Positions 15,436 to 37,782 of a stretch of DNA of 49,073 nt are shown here, in pieces (position 1 is the stretch's first letter; each line of letters starts with the position of its first letter). Location: the NCBI GenBank assembly GCA_023382715.1, contig JAHDWP010000021.1, positions 7,723 to 56,795 of the forward strand, read 5' to 3'. This DNA is from Anaerolineae bacterium. GTDB taxonomy: Bacteria > Chloroflexota > Anaerolineae > Aggregatilineales > Aggregatilineaceae. A program made the position numbers and the translations under genes. Below the pieces are notes generated by a model. That model made no database searches, was not told the origin of the DNA, and worked only from the letters and a program-made list of their open reading frames with translations.

Positions 15436-17580
15436 TTAGGCGTCCACGACGGCGACCGGCAGGAAGGCGTGCCGCCAGATCAGCGACGCGGCGTCGAAGA
15501 ACCAGTCAGCCGCCAGCGGATTGCCGGCATCGCCGCCGTCCGGGTTGAAGGCGCGGCTGTAGGTGGACAGGTGGAAGCCATAGGCCCCTTCGGGCCGCGC
15601 GCCGGGCAGCGAGAAGATCGCGCTGCGGATCACGGTGTTGTCGCCCTGGCTCATGTGCCAGTGATCGTAGGGGTTCTGCGACGGGCCAGCGGCGGCGAAC
15701 TGCGCCGGCGTGAGGGCCGGCCAGTCTGGCTCGGCGGTCGGCGGGTCGGACCAGCCGGGCGCACCCAGCCGTTCCGGGCCGCCTGCGCCGCAGCCGCTGC
15801 CGGAGACGATCGTCTTCAGCAGGTGCTCCGCCGACGCCAGGTAGCTGACGCGGAACTCGATGGTGGCGGGCACGCCGCCATTGCCCGCTGGTCGGCTGAC
15901 CACCGGGCAGACCAGGCTGGGGAAGACCGTCCACGCGCCGGCGCCGGCCACGCGCCAGGCCAGGCTGGTGAACTGGGCGGTTGGCGCCGCGTTGTCCACG
16001 CGGAAGTTGACGCTCGGCGTGGTGTGCACGACCGTCTTGGCCGCGTTGCCCAGTTGCATCTGCACGGTGTACAGGCCGTTGGTGAAGTGGTGCGTCGGCC
16101 AGTTGAGCAGCAGGTTGGCCGGGTGCCAGTCCATCGGGTTAGCCAGGATGGGGTACCAGCCCTGCGCGTCCGGCACGACATGGTGCGGCGCGCCGCCCGC
16201 CCAGGGGTAGATATACCAGGCCACGTTGGTGAAGGGCACTGCCGCCGAGCCGTTGAACGAGTAGAGCAGGCGGTAGAACTGCGCGCCGTCGTGCCGGTTG
16301 CAGCCGTACAACTGCACCACCGAGTGGAACGGCGCGGTGGCCGACAGGCCGGGCACGGGCGCTTCGCTGAGCAGCCCGTGCGGGTGCGGGCGGTTGGGCC
16401 GCACGGCGTAGCCGCTGACCGGGTTGAGGTAACCCGCGTCAACGGGCATCAGGCCGGCGAAGCGGATGCCGGGCACGCCGTTGCAGTCCACAGGGGGGAT
16501 GTCGCAGGCCGGGCTGGTCAGGGCGATGGCGGAGGCGTGGAGGGTGACGTTGGGGATTGGGCCGCTGTTCCAGCGCACGTCGAAGAAGCTCTCGCCGTAG
16601 ATCGTCTCCTCGTCGCCGTCGCCGTCCACGTCCTGCGTGACGCGGAAGGTGATGTCCGGCACGTCCAGGATCGGGGTGAACTCCGGCACCCACACATCGC
16701 GGCAGCGCAGCAGCGGGCCGATGAAGCGGTCGAGCCTCACCTCGAACTTGCGCTTCTCGAAGTGCTCGACGGCGATGTTCATGCGCGCCGCCATGCCCTT
16801 CAGCCCCTGTTCTTCGAGCGTCTCGCGGACGTGCAGCGGCAGCGGCGGGGGCACCGGCTGGCTGAAGGCAGGCCGGTCCAGCACGCGCTGCAGCGCCGAG
16901 TTCTTGGTGCCAAGCTGAGCGGTGTGCTCGATGGCACCCAGTTCCAGGGCAACCTCGTGGCCCAGCACGGCCTCGATCCGCTGGAATTTCTGCCCGCTCG
17001 CCTTGAGGACGAAGGGCGGCGGATCGGGTTCGGGCTTGGGCGGGCGGATGATCGGCGGATCGGGGAGCAGCTCGAAGCGCTCCAGGATGTCGCGGATCGA
17101 GGGCCTGACCAGGAGATCGGGCAGGCACCAGCGCTCGCGCCGCCAGCGCAGAATCCAGTCCACGTCGAAGCGCGGAATCCACACGCAGAAGCGCCCGCAT
17201 TCGTCGGTGGTCACGGTGGCGATGACCTCGCGGTGACAGTGCAGCGGGAAGAGCCAGGCCCACGGTTCCGCCGGCGGGAAGAAGCCGAGGAAGTGGCAGT
17301 CGGTATCTTCGACGTACACCGTTGCGAAGGGCACCGGGCGCGTGACGCCGGTGACGGGATCGGTCTTGACAACCTGGCCGCAGATGCGCCGGAAGAGAAA
17401 CAGCTCTGGGTCAATCCGCCAGCGGTAGCGTTCGATCAGATCGGCCACTGTCTGGTCTTGCAGCTCGGCAGTTTCCACACCGGACAGCGCGGACAGATGG
17501 CTGGCTTGCAGAGCGGTGAGCTTGATCTTGTCCGGCGTTGCGCGCGCGGAACGGCGTTTGGGACGTTGCTTCTCGACCAT
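15436..17580 (-). CDS. Large protein of unknown function with carboxypeptidase-regulatory-like N-terminal part
   Basis: A 714-residue protein I do not recognise by function. No signal peptide or membrane segment is evident. Residues about 55-130 (RRICGQVVKTDPVTGVTRPV and following, then VIATVTTDECGRFCVWIPRF) resemble a transthyretin/carboxypeptidase-regulatory-like beta-sandwich with several Cys and His residues (CHFL, LHCHRE, ECGRFC). Next comes a Pro-rich linker (PPIIRPPKPEPDPPP) and a helical region. The middle has an Asp-rich, calcium-loop-like QDVDGDGDEETIYGESFF. The C-terminal 350 residues are rich in Trp, His, Pro and Gly with beta-type spacing (WPTHHFTNGLYTVQMQLGN), suggesting further Ig-like domains. 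It stands alone, flanked by repeat-rich gaps. A role in structure, adhesion or an extracellular contractile or secretion-linked particle is possible but unsupported. Confidence 0.8.
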   Translation of the reverse strand: MVEKQRPKRRSARATPDKIKLTALQASHLSALSGVETAELQDQTVADLIERYRWRIDPELFLFRRICGQVVKTDPVTGVTRPVPFATVYVEDTDCHFLGFFPPAEPWAWLFPLHCHREVIATVTTDECGRFCVWIPRFDVDWILRWRRERWCLPDLLVRPSIRDILERFELLPDPPIIRPPKPEPDPPPFVLKASGQKFQRIEAVLGHEVALELGAIEHTAQLGTKNSALQRVLDRPAFSQPVPPPLPLHVRETLEEQGLKGMAARMNIAVEHFEKRKFEVRLDRFIGPLLRCRDVWVPEFTPILDVPDITFRVTQDVDGDGDEETIYGESFFDVRWNSGPIPNVTLHASAIALTSPACDIPPVDCNGVPGIRFAGLMPVDAGYLNPVSGYAVRPNRPHPHGLLSEAPVPGLSATAPFHSVVQLYGCNRHDGAQFYRLLYSFNGSAAVPFTNVAWYIYPWAGGAPHHVVPDAQGWYPILANPMDWHPANLLLNWPTHHFTNGLYTVQMQLGNAAKTVVHTTPSVNFRVDNAAPTAQFTSLAWRVAGAGAWTVFPSLVCPVVSRPAGNGGVPATIEFRVSYLASAEHLLKTIVSGSGCGAGGPERLGAPGWSDPPTAEPDWPALTPAQFAAAGPSQNPYDHWHMSQGDNTVIRSAIFSLPGARPEGAYGFHLSTYSRAFNPDGGDAGNPLAADWFFDAASLIWRHAFLPVAVVDA

Positions 17581-18089: not shown

Positions 18090-18257
18090 CCTGGTCGTCT
18101 GTAGGGGCGTATAGCCAGACACCCCTGCAAAACATTATCGCACTCAGCGCCCAACGAAACGCTGACATGTGGGCGCTCCCGCCCGGCGCCCAGTTCGCCC
18201 GCGCGCGGATCGCACGGTATGATCGCCCCGACACAGGGCGAGCCACAGGAGAGTACT

Positions 18258-19517
18258 ATGAGCGCGATCGCTTCGGCGAGCTGGGATGAATGGGTGGCGA
18301 AGTCGGCGGCGCTGCTGCGCGGCAACCGGATCGAGGTGGACGGCTGGCGCTACACTGCCCCGGCGACCAGCCCAACTGCGCACGCCGCCTATGTGCACCA
18401 GTTCCTGTGGGACTCCTGCTTCCACGCGCTGACCTGGCGCTGGTTCGACCCGGCGATGGCCCGCGACGAGCTGCGGGCGCTGGTCGCCGCCCAGGTGCAG
18501 GACGGCCCGGACACCGGCATGATCCCGCACATGACTTCGCGGAGAGGCGGCTCCGAGCAGTTGTGGGGCTGCCCGGATCACAGCCTGATCACGCAGCCGC
18601 CGCTGATCGCGGTGACGGCGATGCTGCTCCACGCCGACGTCCCCGACGTGCCCCTTCTGGCCGAGCTGTATCCTGCGCTGTGCGCCTTTCACGCCTGGTT
18701 CGAGCGGCGGCGCGACCCCGACGGCGACGGGCTGGTCTGCCTGATCCACCCCTGGGAGTCGGGCTGGGATGCCTCGCCGCGCTGGGATCGGGCGATGGGC
18801 CTGCCGGGCGACATGACCTACGAGCAGGGGCGGCTGGCGCGGGTGGCGCTCGCCGCGCACGTGGTCGAGTCTGGCTGCGACGCGGGGGCATTGCTGCGCG
18901 CGGGGTCGTACTGCGTCGAGGCGGTGGACTACAACGCGATTCGCGCTGCCGACCTGGAGGCGCTCGGCGAGATGGCCGCCGCGCTGGATCGCCCCCAGGA
19001 AGCGACGGCCTGGGCCGGGCGTGCGGCCCAGGTGCGCGAGATGTTTCAGCGCAAGATGGTGCGCGATGGCGCTCCCTACGACCTGGACGGCGTGGACGAG
19101 CAGCCCGTCGTGCAGGAGAGCGCAGCGCAGGCCGTCGCCCTGTTCGGCGGCTGCCTGACAGAAGCGCAGGCCGCGCACCTGGTGGCGCAGCTTCGCCAGC
19201 CGCGACACTGGTCGCGCTTCCCCGTGCCGACTTCTCCGACGGACTCCCCGGCGTTCGTGCCCGACCGTTACTGGCGCGGCAACGTCTGGCTGAGCGTCAA
19301 CTGGCTGATCTACATGGGTCTGCGGCGCTACGGGTACGCTGCCCTGGCTTCCGAGCTGGCTGAGCGCAGCCTGGCGCTGGTGGCGCAGGGCGGCTTCTGG
19401 GAGTATTACCACCCGCTGACGGGGCAGGGCCTGGGGTCTCCATCGTATAGCTGGTCGGCGATTGTGCTCGACATGCTGGGCCGTGAGCGCGGACTCGTGC
19501 CGCCGCGCCAGGCGTGA
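18258..19517 (+). CDS. GH63/MGH1-type glycoside hydrolase (putative glucosylglycerate/mannosylglycerate hydrolase)
   Basis: A 419-residue cytoplasmic (alpha/alpha)6-barrel hydrolase. VHQFLWDSCFHALTWRWFDP near residues 46-65, HPWESGWDASPRWDRAMG (Asp171, candidate general acid) and GGFWEYYHPLTGQGLGSPSYS (Glu382, candidate general base) match the mannosylglycerate/glucosylglycerate hydrolase group within GH63, which is about 420-450 residues long. That group splits glycosylglycerates into hexose and D-glycerate. I start at ATG 18258, preceded by CAGGAGAG; the frame is open for 13 more codons. The next gene encodes a GH13_18 phosphorylase, which supports glucosylglycerate as a substrate. A broader (alpha/alpha)6 trehalase-like activity cannot be excluded. 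Confidence 0.85.
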   Translation: MSAIASASWDEWVAKSAALLRGNRIEVDGWRYTAPATSPTAHAAYVHQFLWDSCFHALTWRWFDPAMARDELRALVAAQVQDGPDTGMIPHMTSRRGGSEQLWGCPDHSLITQPPLIAVTAMLLHADVPDVPLLAELYPALCAFHAWFERRRDPDGDGLVCLIHPWESGWDASPRWDRAMGLPGDMTYEQGRLARVALAAHVVESGCDAGALLRAGSYCVEAVDYNAIRAADLEALGEMAAALDRPQEATAWAGRAAQVREMFQRKMVRDGAPYDLDGVDEQPVVQESAAQAVALFGGCLTEAQAAHLVAQLRQPRHWSRFPVPTSPTDSPAFVPDRYWRGNVWLSVNWLIYMGLRRYGYAALASELAERSLALVAQGGFWEYYHPLTGQGLGSPSYSWSAIVLDMLGRERGLVPPRQA

Positions 19518-19572
19518 GCGCAGGGCAGGGCATCACTGCCGGGGCATCGCCTCAAAACCTGCCGCATCCCTC

Positions 19573-19640
19573 TTGACCTCACCCCCGCGCGACGCTGATG
19601 CGCCGCGCCGCCCCCTCTCCCCGCGCGGCGAGGGGGCCTG
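19573..19640. repeat. GC-rich hairpin repeat
   Basis: CCTCACCCCCGCGCG followed by GCCGCCCCCTCTCCCCGCGCGGCGAG forms a GC-rich foldback of the same CCTCACCCCC/CCCCTCTCC family found at 15,256-15,348. It lies in the 241-bp gap between the GH63-type and GH13_18 genes, upstream of a separate promoter. Confidence 0.6.
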
Positions 19641-19685
19641 GGCAGGCTGGGCGGGTGGATGCCCGGCCCCGGATCGCGCGGTGCC

Positions 19686-19714
19686 TTGACTTCTGCCCAT
19701 CCACACCGTATGCT
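19686..19714 (+). promoter_or_regulatory. Probable sigma70-type promoter of the GH13_18 gene
   Basis: TTGACT (19686-19691), a 17-base spacer and TATGCT (19709-19714) place a transcription start near 19,721, about 38 bases ahead of the ATG at 19759. This suggests the phosphorylase and glycosyltransferase genes can be transcribed independently of the GH63-type gene. Confidence 0.55.
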
Positions 19715-19758
19715 AGGCCCAACTGCGCCCTGGGTTTGCACACAAGACGAACAGACCG

Positions 19759-21501
19759 ATGTCAATCACTGAACGCGCACGCGAAAAACTCACTTTCCTC
19801 TACGGCCCCGAACGCGGCGCCGCCTGCCTGGAGCGTCTGCTCGCCCAGCTCGCCGAGTTTCGCGCCCGCCATCCCCGATTGTCGCAACGGCCTGTCGCCC
19901 CTCAAGAGCGCTTCACCGAGCGCGATGTTGTGCTGATCACCTACGGCGATTCGCTGCGCACGCCAGGCGAGTCGCCGCTCAGGACGCTGCACGGCTTCCT
20001 GCAACACCGGCTGACCGGAGTCGTCTCGACGGTGCACATCCTGCCCTTCTTCCCCTATTCGTCCGACGATGGCTTCTCGGTCATTGACTACCTGGCCGTG
20101 AACCCCGACCTGGGCAACTGGGACGACGTAGACCGGCTGGCCGGCGATTTCAAGCTGATGGTGGACGTGGTGATCAACCACGTCTCGGCGCAGAGCGCGT
20201 GGTTTCAGCGTTTCCTGGCCAGCGACCCGGCCTATGAAGAGTTCTTTATCAGCGTAGACCCAACGACCGACCTGTCGAGCGTTGTCCGCCCGCGCACGCT
20301 GCCGCTGCTCAGCGCGGTCGAGACGGCGCACGGCGTGCGCCACGTGTGGACGACCTTCAGCAGCGACCAGATCGATCTCAACTTCGCCAGCCCGGACGTG
20401 CTGCTGGCGATGGTGGACGTGCTGCTGTTCTACGTGGCGCACGGCGCCGGTATGATCCGCCTGGACGCCATCGCCTACCTGTGGAAGACAGTCGGGACAG
20501 GCTGCATTCACCTGCCGGAGACGCACGCGGTCGTGCGCCTGTTCCGCGACATCCTCGACGAGGTGGCGCCGGACGTGGCCCTGATCACCGAGACGAACGT
20601 GCCGCACGCTGAAAACGTCTCGTATTTCGGCGACGGGGCAGACGAAGCCCAGCTTGTCTACCAGTTCACGCTGCCGCCGCTGCTGCTGCACACCTTCGCC
20701 ACCGGCGACGCCACGCGGCTCAGCGAGTGGGCGGCGGGGCTGGAGAAAGTGTCCGACCAGACCTCGTTCTTCAATTTCACCGCGTCGCACGACGGGATCG
20801 GGGTGCGCCCGGTGGAAGGCATCCTGTCGCCGGAAGAAGTGGCGGCGTTGGTAGCGCGGGCGCGCGCGCACGGCGGCGACGTATCCTTCAAGAACAACAG
20901 CGACGGCACGCGCAGCCCTTACGAGCTGAACATTAACTACTTCGACGCGCTCTCCGACCCGGCGGGCGGCGAGCCGCTGGTGCTGCAGGCGCGGCGCTTC
21001 CTGGCTTCGCAGGCGATCCAACTGGCGTTCGTCGGCGTGCCGGGCATCTACCTCCACAGCCTGCTCGGCTCGCGCAACTGGAACGAGGGCGTGGCCCAGA
21101 CGGGCGCGCTGCGCACGATCAACCGCGAGAAGCTGTGGTGCGATGCGGTCGAGGCTGCGCTGGACGATCCGGGGTCACTGCGCAGCTACGTCTTTTACGC
21201 CTACCGCGACCTGATCGCCCGCCGCGCCAGCGAGCGCGCCTTTCACCCCAACGGCGCACAGCAGGTGCTCGATCTGCACCCGGCGGCCTTTGCCCTGCTG
21301 CGCACGTCGCCGGACGGCGCCGAGCGCGTCGTCGCCGTCACCAACGTCTCTGCCGGGCCGATCACCGTAGACCTGGCCGGCGTGCCGCTGGAGGGCGTCC
21401 ACATCTACCGCGACGCGCTGAGCGGGCAGGAGATCGCGCCCGCCGCGCCGCTGACGCTGGAGCCGTACCAGGTGGCCTGGCTCAAGGGAAGCGATCAGTG
21501 A
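19759..21501 (+). CDS. GH13 subfamily 18 sugar phosphorylase (putative glucosylglycerate phosphorylase)
   Basis: A 580-residue retaining glucoside phosphorylase with a TIM barrel and C-terminal beta domain. The catalytic residues look intact: nucleophile Asp236 in GMIRLDAIAYLWK, acid/base Glu278 in ALITETNVPHAEN, and the transition-state Asp345 in FTASHDGIG. LPFFPYSSDDGFSVIDY is the GH13_18 signature loop. The length exceeds sucrose phosphorylases (about 490-505) and fits the glucosylglycerate phosphorylase group known from Meiothermus and E. coli YcjM, which yields glucose 1-phosphate and glycerate. Sucrose phosphorylase or glucosylglycerol phosphorylase activity remain alternatives. The start is the first ATG; there is no strong ribosome-binding site. 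It lies 140 bp before the glycosyltransferase gene. Confidence 0.88.
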   Translation: MSITERAREKLTFLYGPERGAACLERLLAQLAEFRARHPRLSQRPVAPQERFTERDVVLITYGDSLRTPGESPLRTLHGFLQHRLTGVVSTVHILPFFPYSSDDGFSVIDYLAVNPDLGNWDDVDRLAGDFKLMVDVVINHVSAQSAWFQRFLASDPAYEEFFISVDPTTDLSSVVRPRTLPLLSAVETAHGVRHVWTTFSSDQIDLNFASPDVLLAMVDVLLFYVAHGAGMIRLDAIAYLWKTVGTGCIHLPETHAVVRLFRDILDEVAPDVALITETNVPHAENVSYFGDGADEAQLVYQFTLPPLLLHTFATGDATRLSEWAAGLEKVSDQTSFFNFTASHDGIGVRPVEGILSPEEVAALVARARAHGGDVSFKNNSDGTRSPYELNINYFDALSDPAGGEPLVLQARRFLASQAIQLAFVGVPGIYLHSLLGSRNWNEGVAQTGALRTINREKLWCDAVEAALDDPGSLRSYVFYAYRDLIARRASERAFHPNGAQQVLDLHPAAFALLRTSPDGAERVVAVTNVSAGPITVDLAGVPLEGVHIYRDALSGQEIAPAAPLTLEPYQVAWLKGSDQ

Positions 21502-21549
21502 TCGGTTGTCCGCGAACGGGTATCAGGGTGGGTACGTTAGGGCATCACG

Positions 21550-21619
21550 CTGACAACCGGGAACTGCCAACCCAAAATCGCCAACTGAAGACTGACCGCT
21601 GATCACTGACCACTGACGA
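21550..21619. repeat. Seven-base-periodic degenerate repeat array (10 units)
   Basis: Ten consecutive heptamers in register include CTGACAA, CTGCCAA, TCGCCAA, CTGAAGA, CTGACCG, CTGATCA, CTGACCA and CTGACGA. Units diverge toward the left, while the right end is close to a CTGACCA consensus. It fills half of the gap between the phosphorylase and glycosyltransferase genes and ends 22 bp before the ATG. It is a short tandem heptanucleotide repeat, not a CRISPR array. Confidence 0.8.
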
Positions 21620-21641
21620 CCACACACAGGAGCGATCCCCC

Positions 21642-22886
21642 ATGCGTATTGGATTCGTCGCTACGCGCATCGCCGGGTTGGACGGCGTCTCGCTGGAGAT
21701 CAACAAGTGGGCCGAGGTGTTGCGTCGGCTGGGCCACGAGCCATGCTTCTGTGCGGGCGAGCTGGGCGAATACGCCCAGCCCGGCCTGGAAGCGCCGCCT
21801 TTCCACTTTCAGCACCCGGAAGCGGTCGCCCTGCACGATGGGGCGTTCAGCGGCGCAGAGGAGTCGCGGGTGCTCTACCGGCGCATCGCCGAGTCAGCGG
21901 GGCGGCTCAAGGCGACGCTCTACGAGTTCGCGGATCGCTTCCAGCCGGACTGGATCATCACCCAGAACGCCCAGGCCATCCCCATGCAGATCGCGCTGGG
22001 CGTGGCCCTGCGCGACTTCATCAGCGAGACGCACCTCCCGACCATCGGCCATCATCACGACTTCTACTGGGAGCGCGAGCGCTTCCTCGTCAACCGCATC
22101 CCCGACATCCTGCTGACCGCTTTTCCGTCTGAGGGCACTTCCACGCGCCACGTGGTGATCAGCACGGCCATGCAGCGCGAGCTGTTCATGCGCCGCCGCC
22201 TGAGCGCGACCTACGTCCCCAATGTGTTCGACTTTCACAACCCGCCCCCGCCGCCGGACGACTACGCGCTGACCGTGCGCGACGAGCTGGGCATCGCCCC
22301 GGACGAGCGGCTGATCCTCCAACCGACGCGCATCGTGCGCCGTAAGAACATCGAGCGGGCGGTCGAGCTGGTGCGCCAGTTGGTCGAGCGCGACCCGCGA
22401 CACCGCTACGTCCTGGTCGTCACCGGCTACGTGGGCGACGAGGCCGGCTCGTACTACGACTGGCTGCTGCGCCAGGTGGAGACGGCGGGCATCCGCGCGC
22501 TGTTCATTGGCGATCGCGTCGAGGAGCAGCGCGGCACGTCGGGCGGGCGGCGCACCTACACGCTGTGGGACATCTACCCGCACGCCGACTTCGTGACCTA
22601 TCTAAGCTCGTATGAGGGCTTCGGCAATGCCCTGATCGAGACGCTCTACTTCCGCAAGCCGCTGGTCGTCAATGCGTACACGGCCTACCGCTCGGATATC
22701 AAGCCGGCGGGCGTGCGCGCGGTGGAGATTCGCGAGGAGGTGACGCCGCAGACGGTGAGCGAGGTGCTGGCTCTGCTCGACGACCCGGCGGAAGTGGCGC
22801 ACACGGTCGCCCACAACTACGCGGTGGGGCAGGCGCATTTCTCGTATGAAGTGCTGGAGTCCAGGCTGCGGGCGCTGCTGGCGTAG
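21642..22886 (+). CDS. GT4-family glycosyltransferase (putative mannosylglucosylglycerate synthase-like)
   Basis: A 414-residue GT-B glycosyltransferase. The N-terminal RIGFVATRIAGLDGVSLEIN is an acceptor-side Gly-rich loop, PTIGHHHDFYWERERF lies mid-protein, and QPTRIVRRKNIERAVELV starts the nucleotide-sugar domain. The retaining EX7E motif is present in SYEGFGNALIETLYF. The HHHDFYWER segment recalls the GT4 enzymes that make mannosylglucosylglycerate from glucosylglycerate and GDP-mannose in Thermotogales; I am relying on memory for this resemblance. It follows the glucosylglycerate phosphorylase-like gene, and AGGAG lies ahead of the ATG. Another mannosyl- or glucosyltransferase role is possible. 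No signal peptide or membrane segment is seen, so it acts in the cytoplasm. Confidence 0.8.
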   Translation: MRIGFVATRIAGLDGVSLEINKWAEVLRRLGHEPCFCAGELGEYAQPGLEAPPFHFQHPEAVALHDGAFSGAEESRVLYRRIAESAGRLKATLYEFADRFQPDWIITQNAQAIPMQIALGVALRDFISETHLPTIGHHHDFYWERERFLVNRIPDILLTAFPSEGTSTRHVVISTAMQRELFMRRRLSATYVPNVFDFHNPPPPPDDYALTVRDELGIAPDERLILQPTRIVRRKNIERAVELVRQLVERDPRHRYVLVVTGYVGDEAGSYYDWLLRQVETAGIRALFIGDRVEEQRGTSGGRRTYTLWDIYPHADFVTYLSSYEGFGNALIETLYFRKPLVVNAYTAYRSDIKPAGVRAVEIREEVTPQTVSEVLALLDDPAEVAHTVAHNYAVGQAHFSYEVLESRLRALLA

Positions 22887-22960: not shown

Positions 22961-23015
22961 TTGACACCCAAAACGTTTTGGATTATCGTAGAAGTATCTA
23001 TCCAAAACGATTTGG
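22961..23015 (+). promoter_or_regulatory. LacI-gene promoter with two CCAAAACG-type operators
   Basis: TTGACA (22961-22966), a 17-base spacer and TATCGT (22984-22989) form a strong promoter. The spacer contains a perfect 14-bp palindrome, CCAAAACGTTTTGG (22968-22981). A second, one-mismatch copy, CCAAAACGATTTGG, lies at 23002-23015 just before the LacI ATG. The centres are 34 bp apart. The arrangement indicates autorepression of the regulator and repression of the downstream importer operon. I found no further copy in the window. Confidence 0.85.
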
Positions 23016-23023
23016 ATAAGCTG

Positions 23024-24040
23024 ATGAAAGTTACCCTTAAGACGATTGCTGAAGAAGCGGGCCTTTCCATCACCACAGTCTCACGGGCGCTGGCCGGGTA
23101 CGGCGATGTCAACGAAGATACCCGCCGCCGCATCGTAGCCATTGCCCAACGTCTCGGCTACCAGCCCAACCTCGCCGCTCGCCATCTGCGCAGCAAGCAG
23201 ACGCGCACCATCGGGATGGTCATCCCGCTCACTTCGTACTTCTCCGATCCGTTCTTCATGGAGCTGCTCTCTGGCGTGGGCCGCCAGGCCGCCGAGTATG
23301 GCTACGACCTGCTGCTTTCGGCCCAGCAGCCGGGCGAAGAAGAGCTGAGCGCCTACCGGCGCATGGTCGCCAGCAGCCGCATTGACGGCGTGGTGCTGGC
23401 CCGCGTGCTGGCCGACGACCCGCGCATCGCCTTTCTGAAGGAAGCGCGTCACCCGTTCGTCGCTTTTGGGCGCTCGAACGCCAACGACTACCCGTACATT
23501 GACGTGGACGGGGCGACCGGCGTGTATCGCCTGGTCGAGCACCTGGTCGCGCGCGGGCACCGGCGCATCGCCATAATTCTGTCGCCGCGCACCCTGGCCT
23601 TCACCACTGCGCGCTTCGAAGGCTATCAGCGGGCGCTGAACGAGGCCGGCATCGCCCTGGCCGGGCAGTACATCGTGGAGTCCGACCTCACGCAAGAGGG
23701 TGGGCGCATGGCGGCGCAGCGCCTGCTCGATCTACCCTCCCCACCCACCGCCATCGTCGCCTGCAACGACGCGATGGCCATTGGGACTATGCAGGCGATC
23801 CGGGCCTGCGGGCGGGTCGTGGGGCGCGATGTGGCCGTCGCCGGTTTTGACGACATTCCCACAGCGGCTTTCACCGATCCGCCGCTGACGACGGTCCGCC
23901 AGCCGATCTACGACATCGGGCGGCGGGCGCTGGATATGCTGGTTTGCGTCATTCGTCAGGAGCCGCTGGACGAGGCGCATGTGCTGCTGGTTCCAGAGCT
24001 GATTGTGAGACAGTCGAGCGGCGCACCCCCCTCTCGGTGA
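23024..24040 (+). CDS. LacI-family transcriptional regulator
   Basis: A 338-residue repressor. It has an N-terminal LacI helix-turn-helix (TLKTIAEEAGLSITTVSRAL), a hinge helix (PNLAARHLRS) and a periplasmic-binding-protein-like sensor domain (IGMVIPLTSYFSDPFFMELL through AVAGFDDIPTAAFTDPPLTTV). The ATG at 23024 fits the family start exactly; in-frame codons upstream run through the operators and are rejected. The sensor domain should bind a sugar or glycoside carried by the importer encoded downstream. It ends 106 bp before the binding-protein gene, with a perfect Shine-Dalgarno-like AAGGAGGTGACC at 24,052-24,063 in the gap. Confidence 0.95.
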   Translation: MKVTLKTIAEEAGLSITTVSRALAGYGDVNEDTRRRIVAIAQRLGYQPNLAARHLRSKQTRTIGMVIPLTSYFSDPFFMELLSGVGRQAAEYGYDLLLSAQQPGEEELSAYRRMVASSRIDGVVLARVLADDPRIAFLKEARHPFVAFGRSNANDYPYIDVDGATGVYRLVEHLVARGHRRIAIILSPRTLAFTTARFEGYQRALNEAGIALAGQYIVESDLTQEGGRMAAQRLLDLPSPPTAIVACNDAMAIGTMQAIRACGRVVGRDVAVAGFDDIPTAAFTDPPLTTVRQPIYDIGRRALDMLVCVIRQEPLDEAHVLLVPELIVRQSSGAPPSR

Positions 24041-24146: not shown

Positions 24147-25439
<1,293 letters not shown>

Positions 25440-25546: not shown

Positions 25547-26686
25547 ATGAAAAGATTCAGGCTCAATCTCGCACCGTATCTGCTGATCCTGCCCTCGTTT
25601 ATCTACCTGGCCGTGTTCTTCGCCTGGCCGATGGTGCGCTCGCTGCAACTGGCCTTCGTGCGCGACAGCCCGATCCTGCCGGTGCTCAGCGAGCCAGAAG
25701 ACAAGGCCGATGTCGTCGGGCACCTGGAAATGCAGGTGGATGTGGCGGTGGTGGATCGCGTCAAGCGCGACGAGGTGCTGCCCAACGGGCGCACGCGCCC
25801 CGTTTACTGGTTCAAGATCGCCAGCGAGACCGAGGACGGCGACCTGGTGGAGGGCTGGGTGCACCAGAAGAACCTGTTCATCAAGTCGCGCACAGAGTCG
25901 GACACAGCCCGCGTGGTCAGCGGGGAGGGCGCGAAAGAGTGGACGCTCGATTACGTCAAGCGCATGGTCAACGACTACCGCTTCCGCGAGGCGCTGCAAA
26001 CCACGCTGCTGCTGATCGTGCTCATTCTGCCGATCCAGTTCGTGCTGGCCATCATCATGGCCCTGGTGCTGCAATCGCAACTGCGGGGCAACAGTCTTTT
26101 CCTGTACATTTACGCCATCCCGCTGGGCATCTCCGACCTGGCCGCCGGCCTGGTCTGGGTGACGATCTTCACTCAGCGCGGCTATCTGAACACGTTTCTC
26201 CAGCAATTGGGACTCATTGACCAGCCGTATATCTTTCTCTCCGCCCAGAACCGGCACTGGATGATCGTGGCCATTGTGCTGGCCGAGGTCTGGCGGGCCA
26301 CGTCCATTGTCATGGTCATCGTCGTGTCGGGCTTGCAGGCCATCCCGCGCGAATACCTGGAGGCGGGCGAGCTGTTCGGGGCCAGCCTGTGGCAGCGCCT
26401 GCGCCACATCACGCTGCCGCTGCTCAAGCCGAGCCTACAGGTGGCGCTCATCCTGCGCACGATTCTGGCTTTCCAGGTGTTCGCGGTGGTGGTGGCCATC
26501 ACCGGCGGGCGCGTGCTGACCGTGCTGGCCTACGAGACGTACCGCTGGTACGACCCCGGCGACAGCGGCTTCAACAACCCCAACATGGCGGCGGCCTATG
26601 CCGGGTTCATCATGCTGATCTCGCTGGCCTTCGCCGTGTTCTACCTGCGCACCGTCCGCACCCAAGAGGAGGCAGCCAGAGAATGA
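25547..26686 (+). CDS. Sugar ABC transporter permease, MalF/UgpA type, with inserted SH3-like domain
   Basis: A 379-residue permease, about 80-90 residues longer than typical UgpA/MsmF-type subunits. The first transmembrane segment (PYLLILPSFIYLAVFFAWPM) is followed by an insert of roughly residues 45-125. The insert reads like a bacterial SH3 domain: ILPVLSEPEDKADVVGHLEM, then YWFKIASE and EGWVHQKNLFI. The normal family sequence resumes at WTLDYVKRMVNDYRFREALQ, with five more membrane segments and the EAA loop EYLEAGELFGASLWQRLRHI. By topology the insert faces the outside, as the MalF P2 loop does, and may contact the binding protein or cell wall. Ends with a 4-bp overlap into the next permease gene. 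Confidence 0.92.
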   Translation: MKRFRLNLAPYLLILPSFIYLAVFFAWPMVRSLQLAFVRDSPILPVLSEPEDKADVVGHLEMQVDVAVVDRVKRDEVLPNGRTRPVYWFKIASETEDGDLVEGWVHQKNLFIKSRTESDTARVVSGEGAKEWTLDYVKRMVNDYRFREALQTTLLLIVLILPIQFVLAIIMALVLQSQLRGNSLFLYIYAIPLGISDLAAGLVWVTIFTQRGYLNTFLQQLGLIDQPYIFLSAQNRHWMIVAIVLAEVWRATSIVMVIVVSGLQAIPREYLEAGELFGASLWQRLRHITLPLLKPSLQVALILRTILAFQVFAVVVAITGGRVLTVLAYETYRWYDPGDSGFNNPNMAAAYAGFIMLISLAFAVFYLRTVRTQEEAARE

Positions 26687-27534
26687 CCACTCGCGCGCTC
26701 GACCCCGTGCAGCGCCGCGCCATTCGCCGGCGGCAGCTCAACCGGGCCGGCGTCTACGCGCTGGCGATCCTGATCGCGCTCTGGATTCTGCTGCCGATCT
26801 GGCTGATCGGCACCATGGCCTTCAGCACGCGCAGCGATGTGTACGGCTTCCCCAAACAGATGGCGCCGATCCCGTTCACCACCGACACGATGCAGTTCTT
26901 CATCAACCAGCCGGGCATCCTGGACGGCACGCGCAACAGCATCGTGGTCGCTGTGCTCACGCTGGCGCTGTCCACGCTCATTGCGGCGCCCGCCGGCTAT
27001 GCCATCTCGCGCTATGTCTTCGTGGGGCGCGATGCGTTCCGCCTGAGCATCCTGGCTGTGCGCGCCTTCCCCATCGTGATCCTGGCGGTGCCGCTGGCGG
27101 TAACCTTCATCGAGTGGGGCATGTTCGACAAGGTGTACAGCGTGGCGCTGATGCACACCGCCCTGACGCTGCCCACGACCATCCTGGTCGTGTCGAGCGT
27201 GTTCGCCAGCGTCCCGCGCGAGTTTGAGGAGGCGGCCAAAGTCTTCGGCTGCAACGCCTACCAGGCGTTCATGCGCGTGGTGCTGCCGCTGGTGCTGCCC
27301 GGCATCGCCGCTTCGGCGATCTTCACTTTCGTCATGTCGTGGAACGAGGTGTTCGCGGCCACGCTGCTGACCATTCGCAACCGGACGCTGCCCGCGCTGA
27401 TCCTCTACCAGCTCAACAAGTCGTCGTTGCAGTTTCAGTACGCTGGCGGCTTCTTCATGCTCGTCCCGTCGCTGATCTTCATCTTCTTCATCCGGCGCTA
27501 CCTGTTCAACATGTGGGGCCAGATCACGAAATAG
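26683..27534 (+). CDS. Sugar ABC transporter permease, MalG/UgpE type
   Basis: A 283-residue membrane protein with about six transmembrane segments. A cytoplasmic Arg-rich tail (RRAIRRRQLNR) precedes the first. The EAA loop EFEEAAKVFGCNAYQAFMRVVLP is intact, and the FVMSWNEVFAATLL segment is typical of MalG-type subunits. I start at ATG 26683, which overlaps the stop of the MalF-type gene by four bases; upstream in-frame codons are out of family. It pairs with the SH3-containing permease and ends 10 bp before the ATPase gene. Confidence 0.94.
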   Translation: MTTRALDPVQRRAIRRRQLNRAGVYALAILIALWILLPIWLIGTMAFSTRSDVYGFPKQMAPIPFTTDTMQFFINQPGILDGTRNSIVVAVLTLALSTLIAAPAGYAISRYVFVGRDAFRLSILAVRAFPIVILAVPLAVTFIEWGMFDKVYSVALMHTALTLPTTILVVSSVFASVPREFEEAAKVFGCNAYQAFMRVVLPLVLPGIAASAIFTFVMSWNEVFAATLLTIRNRTLPALILYQLNKSSLQFQYAGGFFMLVPSLIFIFFIRRYLFNMWGQITK

Positions 27535-27544: not shown

Positions 27545-28657
27545 ATGGCTGAAATCCGCGTTGAGAATGCAGTCAAGACATTCGGCAAGGTGGTCGCCGT
27601 AGATCATGTGAGCCTCGCCGTCAGAGAGCACGAGTTCGTCGTGCTGCTGGGGCCGAGCGGCTGCGGCAAGACCACGCTGCTGCGGGCCATTGCCGGGCTG
27701 GGCCTGGTGGATTCGGGGCGGATCATGATCGGCGACCGCGACGTGACCTATCTGCCCCCCAAAGACCGCAACATCTCGATGGTCTTCCAGAGTTACGCCA
27801 TCTTCCCCCATATGCGCGTATTCGATAACATCGCCTTTGGCCTGAAGATGAAGCGGGTGCCGAAGGATGAGATCAGGCGGCGCGTGCAGTCGGCGGCGGA
27901 GCTGCTGCATATCGAGAACTTTCTGGAACGCTACCCGTCGCAGATGAGCGGCGGCCAGCGCCAGCGCGTGGCGGTGGCCCGCGCCATCGCCGTGCACGCC
28001 GAAGTGCTGCTGATGGACGAGCCGCTCAGCAACCTGGACGCGCTGCTGCGCCTGGAGATGCGCGCCGAGCTTAAGCGCCTGCTGGCCGAGCTGAAGGCGA
28101 CGACGGTCTACGTGACGCACGATCAGATCGAGGCGCTGAGCATGGGCGACCGCATCGCCGTCATGCGCGAGGGCCGGATTCTCCAGTTCGATTCGCCGAC
28201 CACCGTCTATGACATGCCCGCCGACCGCTTCGTCGCGGGCTTCATCGGCACGCCGCCGATGAACTTCCTGGAAGGGCAGGTGCGCCAGCAGGACGGGGCC
28301 GTCCGCATCTATATCGGCGACTACGCTCTCAAGCCCATCCCGGAGATGGCCGGGATGCTGGCGCGCTACGATGGTCAGCCGATCGTCGCCGGCATCCGCG
28401 CCGAGAACATGGAGGCGCTGAGCCAGCCCGCCGAGGACGCGCTGAAAGTCACCGTGCTGGTGGTGGAGCCCCTGGGATCGCAGAACCTGCTGACCATCCG
28501 CATCGGCGCCGACATCATCAAGGTCGCCACCCACCCGGACTTCCGGGCCGCGCCCGACCAGGACATCTGGATACGCTTCCCCAGCGACAAGATTCGCTGG
28601 ATTGACCGCGACAGCGGCAAGACGCTGCTCCCCGACCTGGATGAGCTGATGGCATGA
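27545..28657 (+). CDS. Sugar ABC transporter ATP-binding protein, MalK/UgpC/MsmK type
   Basis: A 370-residue ATPase with Walker A GPSGCGKTT, Q-loop VFQSYAIFPHMR, signature MSGGQRQR, Walker B VLLMDEPLSNLD, switch VTHDQIEA and the C-terminal OB/TOBE domains of sugar importers (PPMNFLEG, GIRAENMEAL). It drives the two permeases encoded upstream. GGGGGAAG before the ATG serves as ribosome-binding site. Its last codons overlap the following glycosidase-like gene by four bases (ATGA), so import and hydrolysis are coupled. Confidence 0.95.
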   Translation: MAEIRVENAVKTFGKVVAVDHVSLAVREHEFVVLLGPSGCGKTTLLRAIAGLGLVDSGRIMIGDRDVTYLPPKDRNISMVFQSYAIFPHMRVFDNIAFGLKMKRVPKDEIRRRVQSAAELLHIENFLERYPSQMSGGQRQRVAVARAIAVHAEVLLMDEPLSNLDALLRLEMRAELKRLLAELKATTVYVTHDQIEALSMGDRIAVMREGRILQFDSPTTVYDMPADRFVAGFIGTPPMNFLEGQVRQQDGAVRIYIGDYALKPIPEMAGMLARYDGQPIVAGIRAENMEALSQPAEDALKVTVLVVEPLGSQNLLTIRIGADIIKVATHPDFRAAPDQDIWIRFPSDKIRWIDRDSGKTLLPDLDELMA

Positions 28658-30456
28658 GCGAGACCAGGGGAGGGCGGGCGCTGGATCCCGCCCGGCACAG
28701 CAAGCCGCTGGACTTTGGGGCGGACGGCGTCATCGGCAGCGTGGACGCGAGCGGGCGCCTGATCGCGCTCAATACCTACCACGAACGGGTGGGGTTTGTC
28801 ACGCTGACGACGGCGGATCCCTTTCCCGAAAGCCAGCGCTATAACCCGGACGCGGTGCGCCATTATCGCGCCGGGCTGGCGCTGCTGGACGGCTGCGGGC
28901 CACAGCTCGCTGCGCCGGTCAGCGGGCGCACCGCGCGGCTGCTGGCCGACGCCATCCCCCAGGTGACCCTGACCCTGGCCGACGGGACGTCCGCCACCAT
29001 GACCGCCTGGGCGGGCGGCGGCGGGGCCTTCCAGCGGTGGACGGTGAGCGCGCCGTATCGCTGGCGCGGGCGGCTGGCGCTGCAGCGCTGCGCCTACACC
29101 CAACTGACCGAGGGCGGCCCGCTGCCCATGCCACCCCTCCAGACGCGCGCCCGGTTCGCCGATGGCGTGCTCACCGTCGAGAATCCTGCGCTCCCCTGGG
29201 CGGCGGCCATCGCCGGCTTTCCGCCGGGCGAAGCGTGGGAGCGGGGCGCCGACGGCCCGCTCGACGTGGATATGGGCGGCACGCCAGGGACGACAACGCT
29301 CGTCTACGGGTTTGGCCCCACAGCGCCCGGGGCGCGCGCGGCGGCGCTGCGCCTGGCCCAGGACCCGGCCCTGGGCCTGGAAGCCGCGTGCCAGGCGTGG
29401 CGCGCGCGCTTCGACGGCGCGCCCGGCGATCTCATCGTGCGGCGCGGCCTGGGCTATGGGCTGATGCTCGCTGTGCCGGTGGGCGAGACGCGCTGCATCC
29501 TCACCGATCACATGCTGCTGCCGCTCTCGTGGAACCGCGACGCCTACTACGTGGCCCGCGCGCTGCTGTCGTGGCGGCGGGAGATGGGCGATGTGGTGCG
29601 CCGGCATCTGCTGTGGATGTTCGAGGTGGCCGAACGGCCCGCTGGGGAGTGGGGGCGCTGCTACCTGGCCAACGGGCAGATCAAAGACGCGGCGTTCCAG
29701 CTTGACCAGCAGCTTTTTCCCCTGCTGGAGCTGGCCGAATACGTCAGCGAGACCGGTGACCGCGCCACCTGGGAGCGGCTGCGCCCCGCCGTCGGGCCGC
29801 TGGTGGAGAGGCTGCTGGTGCGCAAGGCGGCGCGCGCCTGGCTCTTCCCCACCGACGAGACGCCCGCCGACGATCCGGTGGCGCTGCCCTATCATCTCTC
29901 CAGCCACATGCTGCTATGGCACACCTTTCGGCGGCTCGCCGCGCTGGGCGCTGACGCGCGCCTGGAGGAGATCGCCGAGAACGTGCGCCGATCGGTTTTC
30001 GAGCACTTCACGGCGGCGCGCGACGGGCAGACGCTCTACGCCTACGCGACCGATGGGGCGGGGCGCCACCATTTCTACCACGACGCCAACGACATCCCGC
30101 TGATCCTGGCCCCGCTGTGGGGCTTCACGCCGGCCAGCGATCCGGCCTGGCGGGCGACGGTGGATTTCGCCTTCTCAGAGGCGAACGAAGGCGGCTGCTA
30201 TGCGGGGCGGCTGGGATCGGTGCACACGCGCGCGCCCTGGCCGCTGGGCGACGTGCAGGACGCGCTGGCCGCCCGGCTGCTGGGCGACGCCGAGCGGGAG
30301 CGGCGGGCCTGGGCGCACCTGGATGACGCGCTGCAGTGGGACGGGGCGCTGCCCGAAGCCTGCCATCCGGCGACGGGGGCGGTCGTCTCGCGGCACTGGT
30401 TCGCCTGGCCGAACGCGGCAGCGGCCTGCCTGGCGCTGGGGGCGTTCGGCGCGTAG
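28654..30456 (+). CDS. GH125-like (alpha/alpha)6-barrel glycoside hydrolase
   Basis: A 600-residue protein with no signal peptide. The N-terminal 240 residues are beta-rich; the C-terminal 350 residues look like an (alpha/alpha)6 barrel. LSWNRDAYYVARALL (Asp296), DAAFQLDQQLFPLLELAEYV (Asp351) and YHDANDIPLILAPLWGF (Asp477, Asp480) line up in order with the WIRDS, WERKYEIDS and MDDANVPS motifs of GH125 exo-alpha-mannosidases, though the match is distant and GH125 proteins are shorter (about 430). It may be a divergent alpha-mannosidase or a new family in the same fold. Position as last gene of the LacI-controlled importer operon, coupled by 4 bp to the ATPase gene, suggests it processes the imported glycoside in the cytoplasm. 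Confidence 0.7.
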   Translation: MSETRGGRALDPARHSKPLDFGADGVIGSVDASGRLIALNTYHERVGFVTLTTADPFPESQRYNPDAVRHYRAGLALLDGCGPQLAAPVSGRTARLLADAIPQVTLTLADGTSATMTAWAGGGGAFQRWTVSAPYRWRGRLALQRCAYTQLTEGGPLPMPPLQTRARFADGVLTVENPALPWAAAIAGFPPGEAWERGADGPLDVDMGGTPGTTTLVYGFGPTAPGARAAALRLAQDPALGLEAACQAWRARFDGAPGDLIVRRGLGYGLMLAVPVGETRCILTDHMLLPLSWNRDAYYVARALLSWRREMGDVVRRHLLWMFEVAERPAGEWGRCYLANGQIKDAAFQLDQQLFPLLELAEYVSETGDRATWERLRPAVGPLVERLLVRKAARAWLFPTDETPADDPVALPYHLSSHMLLWHTFRRLAALGADARLEEIAENVRRSVFEHFTAARDGQTLYAYATDGAGRHHFYHDANDIPLILAPLWGFTPASDPAWRATVDFAFSEANEGGCYAGRLGSVHTRAPWPLGDVQDALAARLLGDAERERRAWAHLDDALQWDGALPEACHPATGAVVSRHWFAWPNAAAACLALGAFGA

Positions 30457-30519: not shown

Positions 30520-30553
30520 AGACTTCCGAAGTTTTCGAAAACTTCGGAAGTCT
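30520..30553. repeat. Perfect 34-bp palindrome (copy 2 of CTTCCGAAG element)
   Basis: AGACTTCCGAAGTTTTC (30520-30536) is followed directly by its exact reverse complement to 30553. It shares the CTTCCGAAGTT/AACTTCGGAAG arms with 18,063-18,089. It starts 63 bp after the GH125-like gene stop and could form a long hairpin that ends that transcript, although there is no T-run. Its perfect two-fold symmetry could also bind a dimeric protein. Confidence 0.9.
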
Positions 30554-30637: not shown

Positions 30638-31780
30638 ATGAAACCGTTTACACTTGCCCGCGAAAGCGCTCTGCCTCTGCACCGGCAGCTTCTCAACGAG
30701 CTGCGCCATGCCATCCTGACGGGTGAACTCAAGGCGCACGACCAGTTGCCCGGCGAGCTGGAGCTGGTGGTCCAACTGGGGATCAGCCGCGCGACGATCC
30801 GCCGGGCGTGGGAGTCCGCGCTGGAAGAAGGGCTGCTCTACCGCGTGGCGGGCAAGGGGACTTATGTCTCGGACCTGCAGCCCCCCCTGCCCAGGCGCAA
30901 GATTGTTGGGTTCCTGGTGCCCGGCTTTCACAGCGCGTTTGACAGCCAACTGCTGGCCGGCGCGGAGAATGTTCTGCGCTCGCAGGGGTATGGCGTGCTC
31001 TTCGCCTGCACCGAGCGCAATGTGGACGAGGAGAACCGGCTGCTGCGCGAAATGTGCGACGACAGCGTGGCCGGGCTGCTGATCTGGCCGGCGGTCACCG
31101 CGGTTTCTAACGGGCGCTATCTTCTGAGCGCCCACTGTCGCCTGCCGATTGTGCTGCTCGACCGCCCGCTGCCGGGGCTGGCGCTGCCTTGTGTGACCAG
31201 CCACAACTACCTGGGGGGGATGGAGGCCACCCATCATCTGCTGGCGCTGGGGCATCGCGAGGTTGCTTTTCTGGCCAGCCCGCTGCTGGACCTGTGGCCC
31301 ATCGCGGAGCGTTTCCGCGCCTATCAGGAGGCGATGCGCAGCGCGAGCCTGGAGCCGCTGCCGCCGCTGCTGATCGGTCCGCGCGAGGAGATCAGGGTGG
31401 ATGCGGTGCGCCGTTCGGTGGCCGAAGCCTACGCCAGCGAAATCGCTGATCTGGCGCGGGCGCTGGCGCATCCTGGCCGCCCGACGGCGATCTTTGCCAT
31501 GAACGATCTGATGGCCCTGCTGACCGTCATTGCGGCGGGCCAGGCGGGGCTGCGCGTCCCGCACGACCTATCGGTGGTCGGCTTCGACAATCTCAGCCTG
31601 GTCGAGCACTTCGCCCCACCGCTGACTACGGTCGCTCAAGACCCGTTCAAGATGGGGGCTGAGGCGGCCCGGCGTTTGCTGACAATCGTTGAGGGAGAGC
31701 CAGCAAACGACGTGTGGACATTGCTGCCAACCCGCCTGATAGTCCGCGCCTCCACAGCCCCGCCCCCCGGAAGGAGGTGA
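30638..31780 (+). CDS. GntR-LacI hybrid transcriptional regulator (AraR-like architecture)
   Basis: A 380-residue regulator. Residues 1-75 form a GntR winged helix (LHRQLLNELRHAILTGELKA, GISRATIRRAWESALEEGLL, GKGTYVSDL). From about residue 88 the protein is a LacI-type periplasmic-binding-protein sensor (KIVGFLVPGFHSAFDSQLLAG through SVVGFDNLSLVEHFAPPLTTV). This domain combination is the one used by AraR of Bacillus. It heads the second sugar-importer operon, 188 bp before the binding-protein gene, and should respond to that operon's substrate. Its stop codon lies inside a perfect Shine-Dalgarno-like AAGGAGGTGACC (31,771-31,782). Confidence 0.93.
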   Translation: MKPFTLARESALPLHRQLLNELRHAILTGELKAHDQLPGELELVVQLGISRATIRRAWESALEEGLLYRVAGKGTYVSDLQPPLPRRKIVGFLVPGFHSAFDSQLLAGAENVLRSQGYGVLFACTERNVDEENRLLREMCDDSVAGLLIWPAVTAVSNGRYLLSAHCRLPIVLLDRPLPGLALPCVTSHNYLGGMEATHHLLALGHREVAFLASPLLDLWPIAERFRAYQEAMRSASLEPLPPLLIGPREEIRVDAVRRSVAEAYASEIADLARALAHPGRPTAIFAMNDLMALLTVIAAGQAGLRVPHDLSVVGFDNLSLVEHFAPPLTTVAQDPFKMGAEAARRLLTIVEGEPANDVWTLLPTRLIVRASTAPPPGRR

Positions 31781-31968
31781 CCCTCAAAAGGATAGCCAAT
31801 TCTGTGACTTAAAGCTACCCATCATATGCCGTATGAGACCGCCAGACGACGATTCGGCGCCCGCTGAGGGGTGTTCTGTCATCCCAGCGGGGCGGGTGTC
31901 CGCGCCGATTGGCACGGCGGTCAGCTAGCCAGCCGTTCGAATTTAGTGGTTATGGAGGCATTCACCCC

Positions 31969-33345: not shown

Positions 33346-33373
33346 CTGCGGCGCTTCGCTGCGCCAACGACAT

Positions 33374-33399: not shown

Positions 33400-33419
33400 C
33401 CAGTCTTCTGGAGCGCACC

Positions 33420-35161: not shown

Positions 35162-35186
35162 CCCTGAGCTACGGACAAACAACACG

Positions 35187-37764: not shown

Positions 37765-37782
37765 CTACAAAGTGAGCGAGCT

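Follow-up and report, generated by a model that had tools for sequence, protein, structure and literature searches.

A putative LacI-controlled locus for the uptake and breakdown of glycosylglycerate osmolytes in an Anaerolineae bacterium (Chloroflexota)

Three adjacent genes, for a glycoside hydrolase, a phosphorylase and a glycosyltransferase, raise the question of whether the locus in which they lie makes and recycles glycosylglycerates, or takes them up and breaks them down. The window analysed here is the whole stretch of 49,073 nucleotides. The initial annotation regarded the trio as a compact unit for recycling glucosylglycerate, an interpretation that as a whole is partly supported. 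The sequence points with reasonable probability to a locus under LacI control by which Anaerolineae (Chloroflexota) would take up glycosylglycerate osmolytes and break them down, and the best reading is that the locus is not a self-contained synthesis-plus-recycling unit.

In the ORF list of the window, all three trio ORFs are consecutive on the + strand, as previously described: a GH63/MGH1-like glycoside hydrolase (PF22422; 432 aa, 18219..19517), a predicted GH13_18 glucosylglycerate phosphorylase (GGaP; 580 aa, 19759..21501) and a GT4 glycosyltransferase (414 aa, 21642..22886). The hydrolase ORF is real, but the start assigned to it, 18258, is an internal ATG of an ORF that begins at 18219. 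Equally, the three genes of the compact unit are real, but the next six were omitted: the trio is part of a bigger cluster, arranged around an importer. These six genes, also on the + strand, encode a LacI-family regulator (23024..24040, starting at the ATG at 23024; the mechanical ORF starts at 22907), the four proteins of an ABC importer, and a GH125-like hydrolase (600 aa, 28654..30456). The importer consists of a solute-binding protein (SBP, 24147..25439), permease A (25547..26686), permease B (26389..27534) and a MalK/UgpC-type ATPase (27545..28657), the ATPase gene overlapping the GH125-like gene by 4 bases. Permease B is given as a mechanical ORF of 381 aa; its Meiothermus homologue is shorter, at 266 aa, so translation probably begins about 300 bases inside this ORF. 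A search for direct repeats in the region gave nothing useful.

The proposed link to glucosylglycerate is supported, and so is the assignment of the phosphorylase as GGaP. The phosphorylase ORF matches PF00128 (80.3 bits) and the sucrose-phosphorylase model TIGR03852 (198.7 bits, under the cut-off of 334.4). A review (PMC7178133) gives the GGaP signatures as (T/S)ETN at β-strand 5 and Glu in place of Gln in loop A, and the window enzyme has both, with TETN at residue 277 and SPYE at residues 386-389. Both are also present in 44 out of 44 aligned relatives, in E. coli YcjM and in one Meiothermus relative, and in neither of two sucrose phosphorylases, which have YQ in loop A. An SH-aLRT value of 100 splits 57 GGaP-side rows, among them the window enzyme and YcjM, from three sucrose phosphorylases and one GGoP, in a tree built by a quick method, with a long branch and with YcjM as its sole characterised GGaP. 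From its signatures and tree placement, the enzyme looks like a glucosylglycerate phosphorylase, as first suggested. It resembles YcjM in TETN, loop A Glu, clade and length (580 vs 559 residues), with 44% identity, and is 49% identical to its Meiothermus taiwanensis relative; a GGaP of Meiothermus silvanus is named in PMC7178133. According to the same review, putative GGaP genes occur in many organisms that are not thought to be glucosylglycerate accumulators, and the in vivo purpose of GGaP needs study.

The window importer shares 47-59% identity with importers whose genes adjoin those of MgH-type enzymes in Meiothermus and Rhizobium, and alignment shows that these enzymes retain the glycerate pocket. 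Its binding protein, permeases and ATPase are 51, 57, 59 and 57% identical to those of a Meiothermus taiwanensis plasmid cluster, and 50, 47, 48 and 48% identical to the Rhizobium set, which is followed by an MgH-type gene. The plasmid cluster (pMtWR-220) has the order LacI-SBP-permease-permease-ATPase-MgH type-GGaP. Its LacI, importer and GGaP are homologues of those in the window, with identities of 45-59%, and its LacI and importer genes have the same order; unlike the window, it has an MgH-type enzyme with the glycerate pocket, and no GH125-like or GT4 gene in the annotated stretch. The E. coli ycjM-W cluster likewise combines GGaP, ABC importer and LacI-type regulator, but YcjM lies with ycj genes, whereas the window GGaP adjoins a Meiothermus-type importer. 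The binding protein (SBP1) has no similarity to YcjN at E 1e-3, the permeases compare with YcjO/YcjP at about 28-29%, and none of the window genes described corresponds to the ycj dehydrogenases or to the kojibiose phosphorylase.

The GH125-like ORF matches PF06824 at 58.5 bits (gathering threshold 23.4), over profile positions 214-410 of 414 only; all 11 aligned relatives match this family too (E 0.01). Residues D406 and E568, invariant across 26 sequences, fall opposite Asp220 and Glu393 when the protein is aligned with the Clostridium perfringens enzyme, and these we take to be the catalytic Asp and Glu of GH125. There is structural likeness to GH125 exo-α-1,6-mannosidase (Z 37.4 over 342 residues), and the known GH125 structures are titled α-1,6-mannosidases; the window protein differs in its extra β-rich N-terminal part, its 17-18% identity and its link to glycerate genes in relatives. 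The N-terminal-extended protein aligns over 509-523 residues to GH15-type enzymes, and GH15 α-glucosidases match it too. In the open-licence literature we found no paper joining GH125 and glycerate, and none joining glucosylglycerate and Anaerolineae.

Fifty-five named loci contain a GH125-like ORF; 32 of them have at least three of the four transporter genes, and the gene order of this core is LacI-SBP-permeases-ATPase-GH125-like. GGaP is found in 16 of these core loci, GT4 in 7 and an MGH-type gene in 6. As a point against uptake and breakdown, 4 of the 18 core loci that are flanked on both sides by over 2.5 kb lack all three. In one locus (L243), GpgS-GGaP-MGH-type genes stand immediately before the core, and in a Paenibacillus locus (L270) a glycerate kinase gene lies directly 3' of the GH125-like gene. 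The GH125-like protein is fused to GGaP in one genome (L255) and to GT4 in another (L257). The GH125-like enzyme, with its fusion partners, can be named as a likely missing hydrolase.

In the window, two putative LacI-type operator copies, ACCCAAAACGTTTTGGAT (22966..22983) and ATCCAAAACGATTTGGAT (23000..23017), neither assigned a strand, precede LacI (0 expected). Of 26 named core loci, 25 have an operator in the interval from -200 to +150 relative to the start of the LacI ORF, and the sole exception starts at a contig edge. Away from LacI, operators are found at the GGaP start (L189), between GT4 and GGaP (L194), and before the GH125-like-GT4 fusion (L257). In relatives, the conserved, predicted LacI operator and the two natural gene fusions tie GH125-like, GT4 and GGaP together. 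No operator was found before the trio within the window; the window operator precedes LacI, not the trio, and therefore does not place the window trio in the regulon. Allowing 3 mismatches across the genome gave 4 extra weak sites, which we take as noise, the reversed control having given 3.

Under uptake and breakdown, the ABC importer would take up mannosyl-, glucosyl- or mannosylglucosylglycerate. The GH125-like enzyme, plus the GH63-like enzyme where present, may act on solutes that are not substrates of GGaP and cut off their terminal hexose, which would be mannose in mannosylglycerate or the outer sugar in mannosylglucosylglycerate. GGaP, judging from signature and placement, would then convert glucosylglycerate by phosphorolysis to glucose 1-phosphate and D-glycerate, and the glycerate could enter metabolism via a glycerate kinase that the host genome encodes elsewhere (293 bits). 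The GT4 probably glycosylates scavenged glucosylglycerate.

The GT4 ORF matches PF00534 (45.4 bits), and NF041101 (mannosylglucosylglycerate synthase, MggS) at 229.5 bits over residues 1-411, where the cut-off is 640. The HHHDFYWER segment reported earlier is present, and the protein shares with MggS the GT4 assignment, the near full-length NF041101 match and the HxHDFxWER and E-x7-E segments. By sequence it is a distant relative of MggS. Its identification as MggS itself is not upheld: the score is far under the cut-off, the tree places the enzyme in an import-operon clade apart from the GT4s adjoining GpgS, and no GpgS was found in the genome. GT4s from GpgS clusters also fall under 640 (e.g. 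243.6 and 240.7), and no association of the GT4 with GpgS was found in cluster or genome, such association not being a formal MggS family criterion. The GGaP-GT4 pairing is conserved, not universal. For the phylum, where a search gave 45 places in 43 of 400 genomes, 40 stretches were fetched (three places besides that of the window were left out), and 25 of the 40 hold a GGaP relative as well as GT4. For the order, with 54 places in 51 of 154 genomes, the corresponding count is 19 of 40. Some of the stretches stop at a contig edge.

Two points about the GT4 count against the uptake-and-breakdown reading: it is not obvious what such an enzyme would contribute to catabolism in a breakdown operon, and 34 of the 85 GT4 rows of the tree come from stretches without GGaP, GpgS or importer. 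A trehalose-phosphorylase-like catabolic enzyme, of which there is a precedent, was considered for this protein.

GpgS was not found in the host genome: NF010496 gave 12 weak places, the best at 44.9 bits, compared with 378 for a relative's GpgS protein as positive control (cut-off 262). Each of the 8 best of these 12 places matches another family better than GpgS; 6 of the 8 list GpgS lower and 2 do not at E 1e-8. A relative's GpgS domain as query reached at best 20.6 bits in the host genome, and MpgS (PF09488) had no match there. GpgS was found in none of the 17 GT4-bearing genomes of the family (the host genome and 16 drafts). Twelve of the genomes searched have a GT4 that the tree includes from an import locus, and none of these gave a GpgS either. 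That GGaP lies within or next to an import operon with a conserved LacI operator, while no GpgS was found in the family, makes an uptake role directly testable.

These counts, and the GH125-like-GT4 fusion, also favour a different use of the imported solute, which we regard as possible though doubtful: glucosylglycerate from neighbours would be imported and mannosylated by the GT4 to a stronger osmolyte, and the hydrolases and GGaP would recover the carbon after stress. Against this, 10 of the 16 GGaP-bearing core loci have no GT4, and most of the genomes are drafts. We tentatively put forward a scavenging and upgrading regulon in bacteria that cannot start glucosylglycerate synthesis themselves, in which glycosylglycerates might be imported, converted by a new GT4 subfamily and dismantled by a GH125-like family, fused in some cases to GT4 or GGaP, that replaces mannosylglycerate hydrolase. 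If this is true, a new family of hydrolases for glycerate glycosides would be represented by the GH125-like proteins.

The recycling unit originally proposed, with hydrolase and phosphorylase both cleaving glucosylglycerate and the GT4 extending it to mannosylglucosylglycerate, is unlikely. The hydrolase matches PF22422 MGH1-like_GH at 281 bits (cut-off 27), and its fold is nearest to Thermus MgH TTHA0978 (Z 40.0) and also like MhGgH (Z 35.2). Numbered by MhGgH, for which PMC6608630 defines the catalytic and subsite residues, it keeps the catalytic pair D182 and E419 and the sugar subsite W42, D43, Q115, W376, W381 and W436, all in common with MgH/GgH, while Q434 is Y (F in the Meiothermus and Rhizobium proteins). 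The same paper lists Tyr36, Trp40, Tyr88, Arg216 and Tyr375 as glycerate contacts, with Phe89 and Tyr222 among the water-mediated ones. Compared with MgH/GgH, the glycerate-binding loops of the window hydrolase are shortened or substituted and the glycerate subsite is largely lost: Y36 and Y375 are kept, W40 is F, and Y88/F89, R216 and Y222 have no counterpart in an alignment whose columns flanking the missing loop are uncertain, one Tyr standing near. By alignment the loop is absent from six orthologues too, two of which keep W40. The NF047898 score (155.5 bits, curated cut-off 550) decides little alone, because an intact-pocket Meiothermus protein, at 403, is also under it.

Given these losses, the assignment of hydrolase and phosphorylase to one solute is not supported. 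Recycling is favoured by the GGaP signatures, the Thermus MgH-like fold and the full-length NF041101 match, and by MGH-type genes in core stretches without GGaP (L247, L253 and L263, the last two cut by contig ends), as if the two were interchangeable. It is opposed by the lost contacts and the clade of the GT4, and it leaves the importer and the GH125-like gene unexplained. Nor is a recycling unit beside a synthase supported, neither GpgS nor MpgS having been found in the genome; the unit is bigger than the trio and importer-organised.

Of the 154 genomes searched in the order, 14 have a hydrolase relative (E 1e-25), 51 have GT4 and 4 have both, which rules out the hydrolase as a constant cluster partner. 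Two relatives are on short contigs (G480, G531), and three have no cluster link within their stretches (G486, G493 and G430, the last with its gene split over two frames). One lies beside a different transporter with a GGaP fragment within the stretch (G454), one beside GGaP (G415), and seven either belong to the cluster or adjoin the GH125-like gene (G000, G429, G431, G460, G470, G479 and G490).

Synthesis without GpgS, in which GGaP would join glucose 1-phosphate and glycerate and the GT4 would pull the product onward, is quite improbable. It agrees with the failure to find GpgS in the family, and with the GGaP-GT4 pair of L194, a stretch of 19.9 kb that contains neither importer nor GpgS, as neither was found in its genome, G417; but the importer-centred core and LacI operator suggest uptake and use, and phosphorylases in cells usually run in the breakdown direction. 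Finally, a general sugar operon for sucrose or α-glucan is very improbable: TIGR03852 and PDB sucrose phosphorylases do match the GH13_18 enzyme, but the former under its cut-off, a sucrose phosphorylase is ruled out by signature and tree, and 2-hydroxyacid dehydrogenase and glycerate kinase genes are neighbours in some relatives.

The three genes placed in a row by the initial annotation are found on the forward strand at 18219-22886, as described, and encode in order a GH63/MGH1-type protein of 432 residues, a GH13_18 protein of 580 residues, and a GT4 protein of 414 residues with the segment HHHDFYWER. Downstream, up to 30456, come genes for a LacI regulator, an ABC importer (solute-binding protein, two permeases and ATPase) and a GH125-like protein of 600 residues. 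The trio is probably the edge of a locus for the uptake and breakdown of glycosylglycerates, and the locus is a new variant of arrangements found in Meiothermus and E. coli. As to the imported solute, the substrates of the two hydrolases and the role of the GT4 enzyme, the assignments made here are what we infer. Between the trio and an ABC set further upstream, at 15436-17580 on the reverse strand, is an ORF of 714 residues that matches nothing in Pfam.

The passages on these enzymes in a review (PMC7178133) give two marks of glucosylglycerate phosphorylase (GGaP), the motif (T/S)ETN on strand 5 and Glu within loop A, and name the E. coli enzyme as a characterised GGaP. The GH13_18 protein has both marks, as TETN and SPYE. 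All 44 aligned relatives likewise carry TETN, with YE at the loop A position, as do E. coli YcjM, which is annotated as GGaP and is the characterised reference in the set, and a relative from Meiothermus taiwanensis; the two sucrose phosphorylases aligned have neither. In a tree of 61 rows, made by a quick method and with a long separating branch, a split with support of 100 sets the window protein, together with YcjM and the Meiothermus protein, apart from three sucrose phosphorylases and a glucosylglycerol phosphorylase. The marks and this placement support the initial reading as GGaP.

The importer is conserved. Identities to a set on a Meiothermus plasmid are 45% (LacI), 51% (binding protein), 57 and 59% (permeases) and 57% (ATPase), and to a Rhizobium set 37, 50, 47 and 48, and 48%, respectively. 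The genes that follow the importer differ: in Meiothermus an intact-pocket MgH-type (mannosylglycerate hydrolase) gene and then GGaP, in Rhizobium an intact-pocket MgH-type gene, and in Chloroflexota core loci usually the GH125-like gene. A scan with the GH125-like protein found, as the host genome's nearest named relatives, metagenome-assembled genomes with the titles Anaerolineae, Thermoflexus, Anaerolineales and other Chloroflexi; some Aggregatilineales come lower down. The named scan comprised 58 loci, 55 of them with a GH125-like ORF, and 32 of those have at least three of the four transporter genes; these 32 core loci include GGaP in 16, GT4 in seven and an MGH-type gene in six. Where more than 2.5 kb is available on both sides (18 core loci), the numbers are 12, six and four, with none of these genes in four. 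Two fusions were seen, each in one genome: GH125-like and GGaP form a single ORF in locus L255, as do GH125-like (residues 39-639) and GT4 (666-1074) at L257:9887-13129 (genome G477, locus L199). In L243 a fragment of GpgS (glucosyl-3-phosphoglycerate synthase), GGaP and an MGH-type gene immediately precede the core. Next after the GH125-like gene of Paenibacillus L270 comes a glycerate kinase (501.8 bits), with relatives in stretches L266, L268 and L282. The order in L270 is GH2-like, carbon-nitrogen-hydrolase-like, GH125-like, glycerate kinase; in Cohnella L266 the same hydrolase and kinase families flank the GH125-like gene.

Upstream of LacI are two CG-centred near-palindromes, at 22966 and 23000, forming a putative operator. 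Shuffled sequence gives an expectation of 0 such sites. Across the whole genome, no others match at up to one mismatch. Of 26 named core loci, 25 have the same operator between -200 and +150 relative to the start of the LacI ORF, 14 of them as a pair spaced by 30-34 bases; the sole exception, L238, starts at the locus edge. Copies also occur away from LacI: L189 has one where GGaP starts, L194 one between its divergent GT4 and GGaP genes, and L199/L257 one 132-133 bases upstream of the GH125-like-GT4 fusion. No operator was found for the window's trio itself.

The GH63/MGH1-type protein was initially taken to cleave glycosylglycerate. It was aligned to the glucosylglycerate hydrolase of Mycolicibacterium hassiacum, using the substrate contacts described in section 3.5 of PMC6608630. 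The window protein retains the catalytic residues Asp182 and Glu419 and most of the sugar contacts. On the glycerate side it keeps Tyr36 and Tyr375, Trp40 is replaced by Phe, and counterparts of Tyr88/Phe89, Arg216 and Tyr222 were not found by alignment; the places of Arg216 and Tyr222 border a loop about 20 residues shorter, where single columns are uncertain and a Tyr is close by. An orthologue in L200 has the same pattern, with Trp40 replaced by Ala, and the loop is absent from six orthologues, two of which retain Trp40. Relatives from Meiothermus, Rhizobium and Nocardia, unlike the window protein, have all these contacts. In the predicted structure, whose mean pLDDT is 78.8, several of these loops are among the weakest regions; its closest match is Thermus MgH, with Z 40.0 across 355 residues. 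Because the catalytic pair and fold are conserved and the pocket is changed, the protein should work like an inverting α-glycosidase of MgH fold, for which glycosylglycerate is not an expected substrate under the known binding mode. YgjK, of the same fold group, was crystallised with a 2-O-glucosyl disaccharide, according to the structure title, and so a fair guess at the substrate would be an α-1,2-linked sugar, for example the outer mannose of mannosylglucosylglycerate.

The GH125-like protein is predicted with a mean pLDDT of 92.7. Its best structural matches are GH125 mannosidases, with Z 37.4 across 342 residues. Next come dextran dextrinase, glucoamylase and glucodextranase, whose alignments span 509-523 residues and take in the N-terminal part (Z about 33). 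Asp406 and Glu568, invariant in 26 sequences, correspond in the alignment to Asp220 and Glu393 of the Clostridium perfringens enzyme, which we take to be catalytic.

The GT4 protein was initially proposed to be a mannosylglucosylglycerate synthase (MggS). Against the MggS profile NF041101 it scores 229.5 bits (cut-off 640), and GT4s from GpgS clusters score about the same; because both are similarly far below the cut-off, neither clade is established as MggS, and the proposal is not borne out. In a tree of 85 rows, which few GT4s from named loci entered, a branch with support of 100 separates all 15 import-locus rows, the window's included, from 20 of the 21 rows from GpgS-bearing stretches; two of the 15 come from a contig represented twice, which leaves 13 distinct rows. 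Rows with GGaP alone divide 11 to four between the import side and the other, and those without GGaP, GpgS or importer neighbours 15 to 19. Locus L045 has one GT4 of each kind, and genome G088 one copy per side. Both sides (21 and 22 rows compared) share HxHDFxWER, R230, K235 and E-x7-E, and are distinguished by nine positions.

Forty GT4-centred stretches from the phylum were surveyed for synthesis genes. GpgS fused to a universal-stress-protein domain is present in 20, a second GT4 in 27, glycerate kinase in four and 2-hydroxyacid dehydrogenase in three. The fused GpgS clears its curated cut-off (378 vs 262), and its GpgS part occurs in 36 of the phylum's 43 GT4-bearing genomes. The fusion is seen at L052:12366-14180 and in relatives, the stress-protein part having been checked in three cases. 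GpgS was found in 18 of 33 tested genomes from the rest of the order, and in none of 17 GT4-bearing genomes of Aggregatilineaceae, the host's own included; these drafts are 73-100% complete, and among the 16 relatives four reach 98% or more. The host assembly has 82 contigs and is 98.6% complete, and MpgS (synthase model PF09488) was not found in it.

It is worth adding that a second cluster follows at 30638-40689, possibly a neighbouring mannoside operon. It encodes a GntR-DNA-binding/LacI-like regulator, another ABC set (31909-36275), a CehA/McbA-type PHP metallohydrolase and a GH38 α-mannosidase, the last scoring 460 bits against the mannosylglycerate hydrolase profile NF007331 (cut-off 1138). 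Upstream of the regulator is a perfect 20-base palindrome, CGAAGTTTTCGAAAACTTCG (30527-30546), a possible operator of this cluster. Phosphoenolpyruvate carboxylase (925 bits) is encoded at 40781-43447 on the reverse strand.
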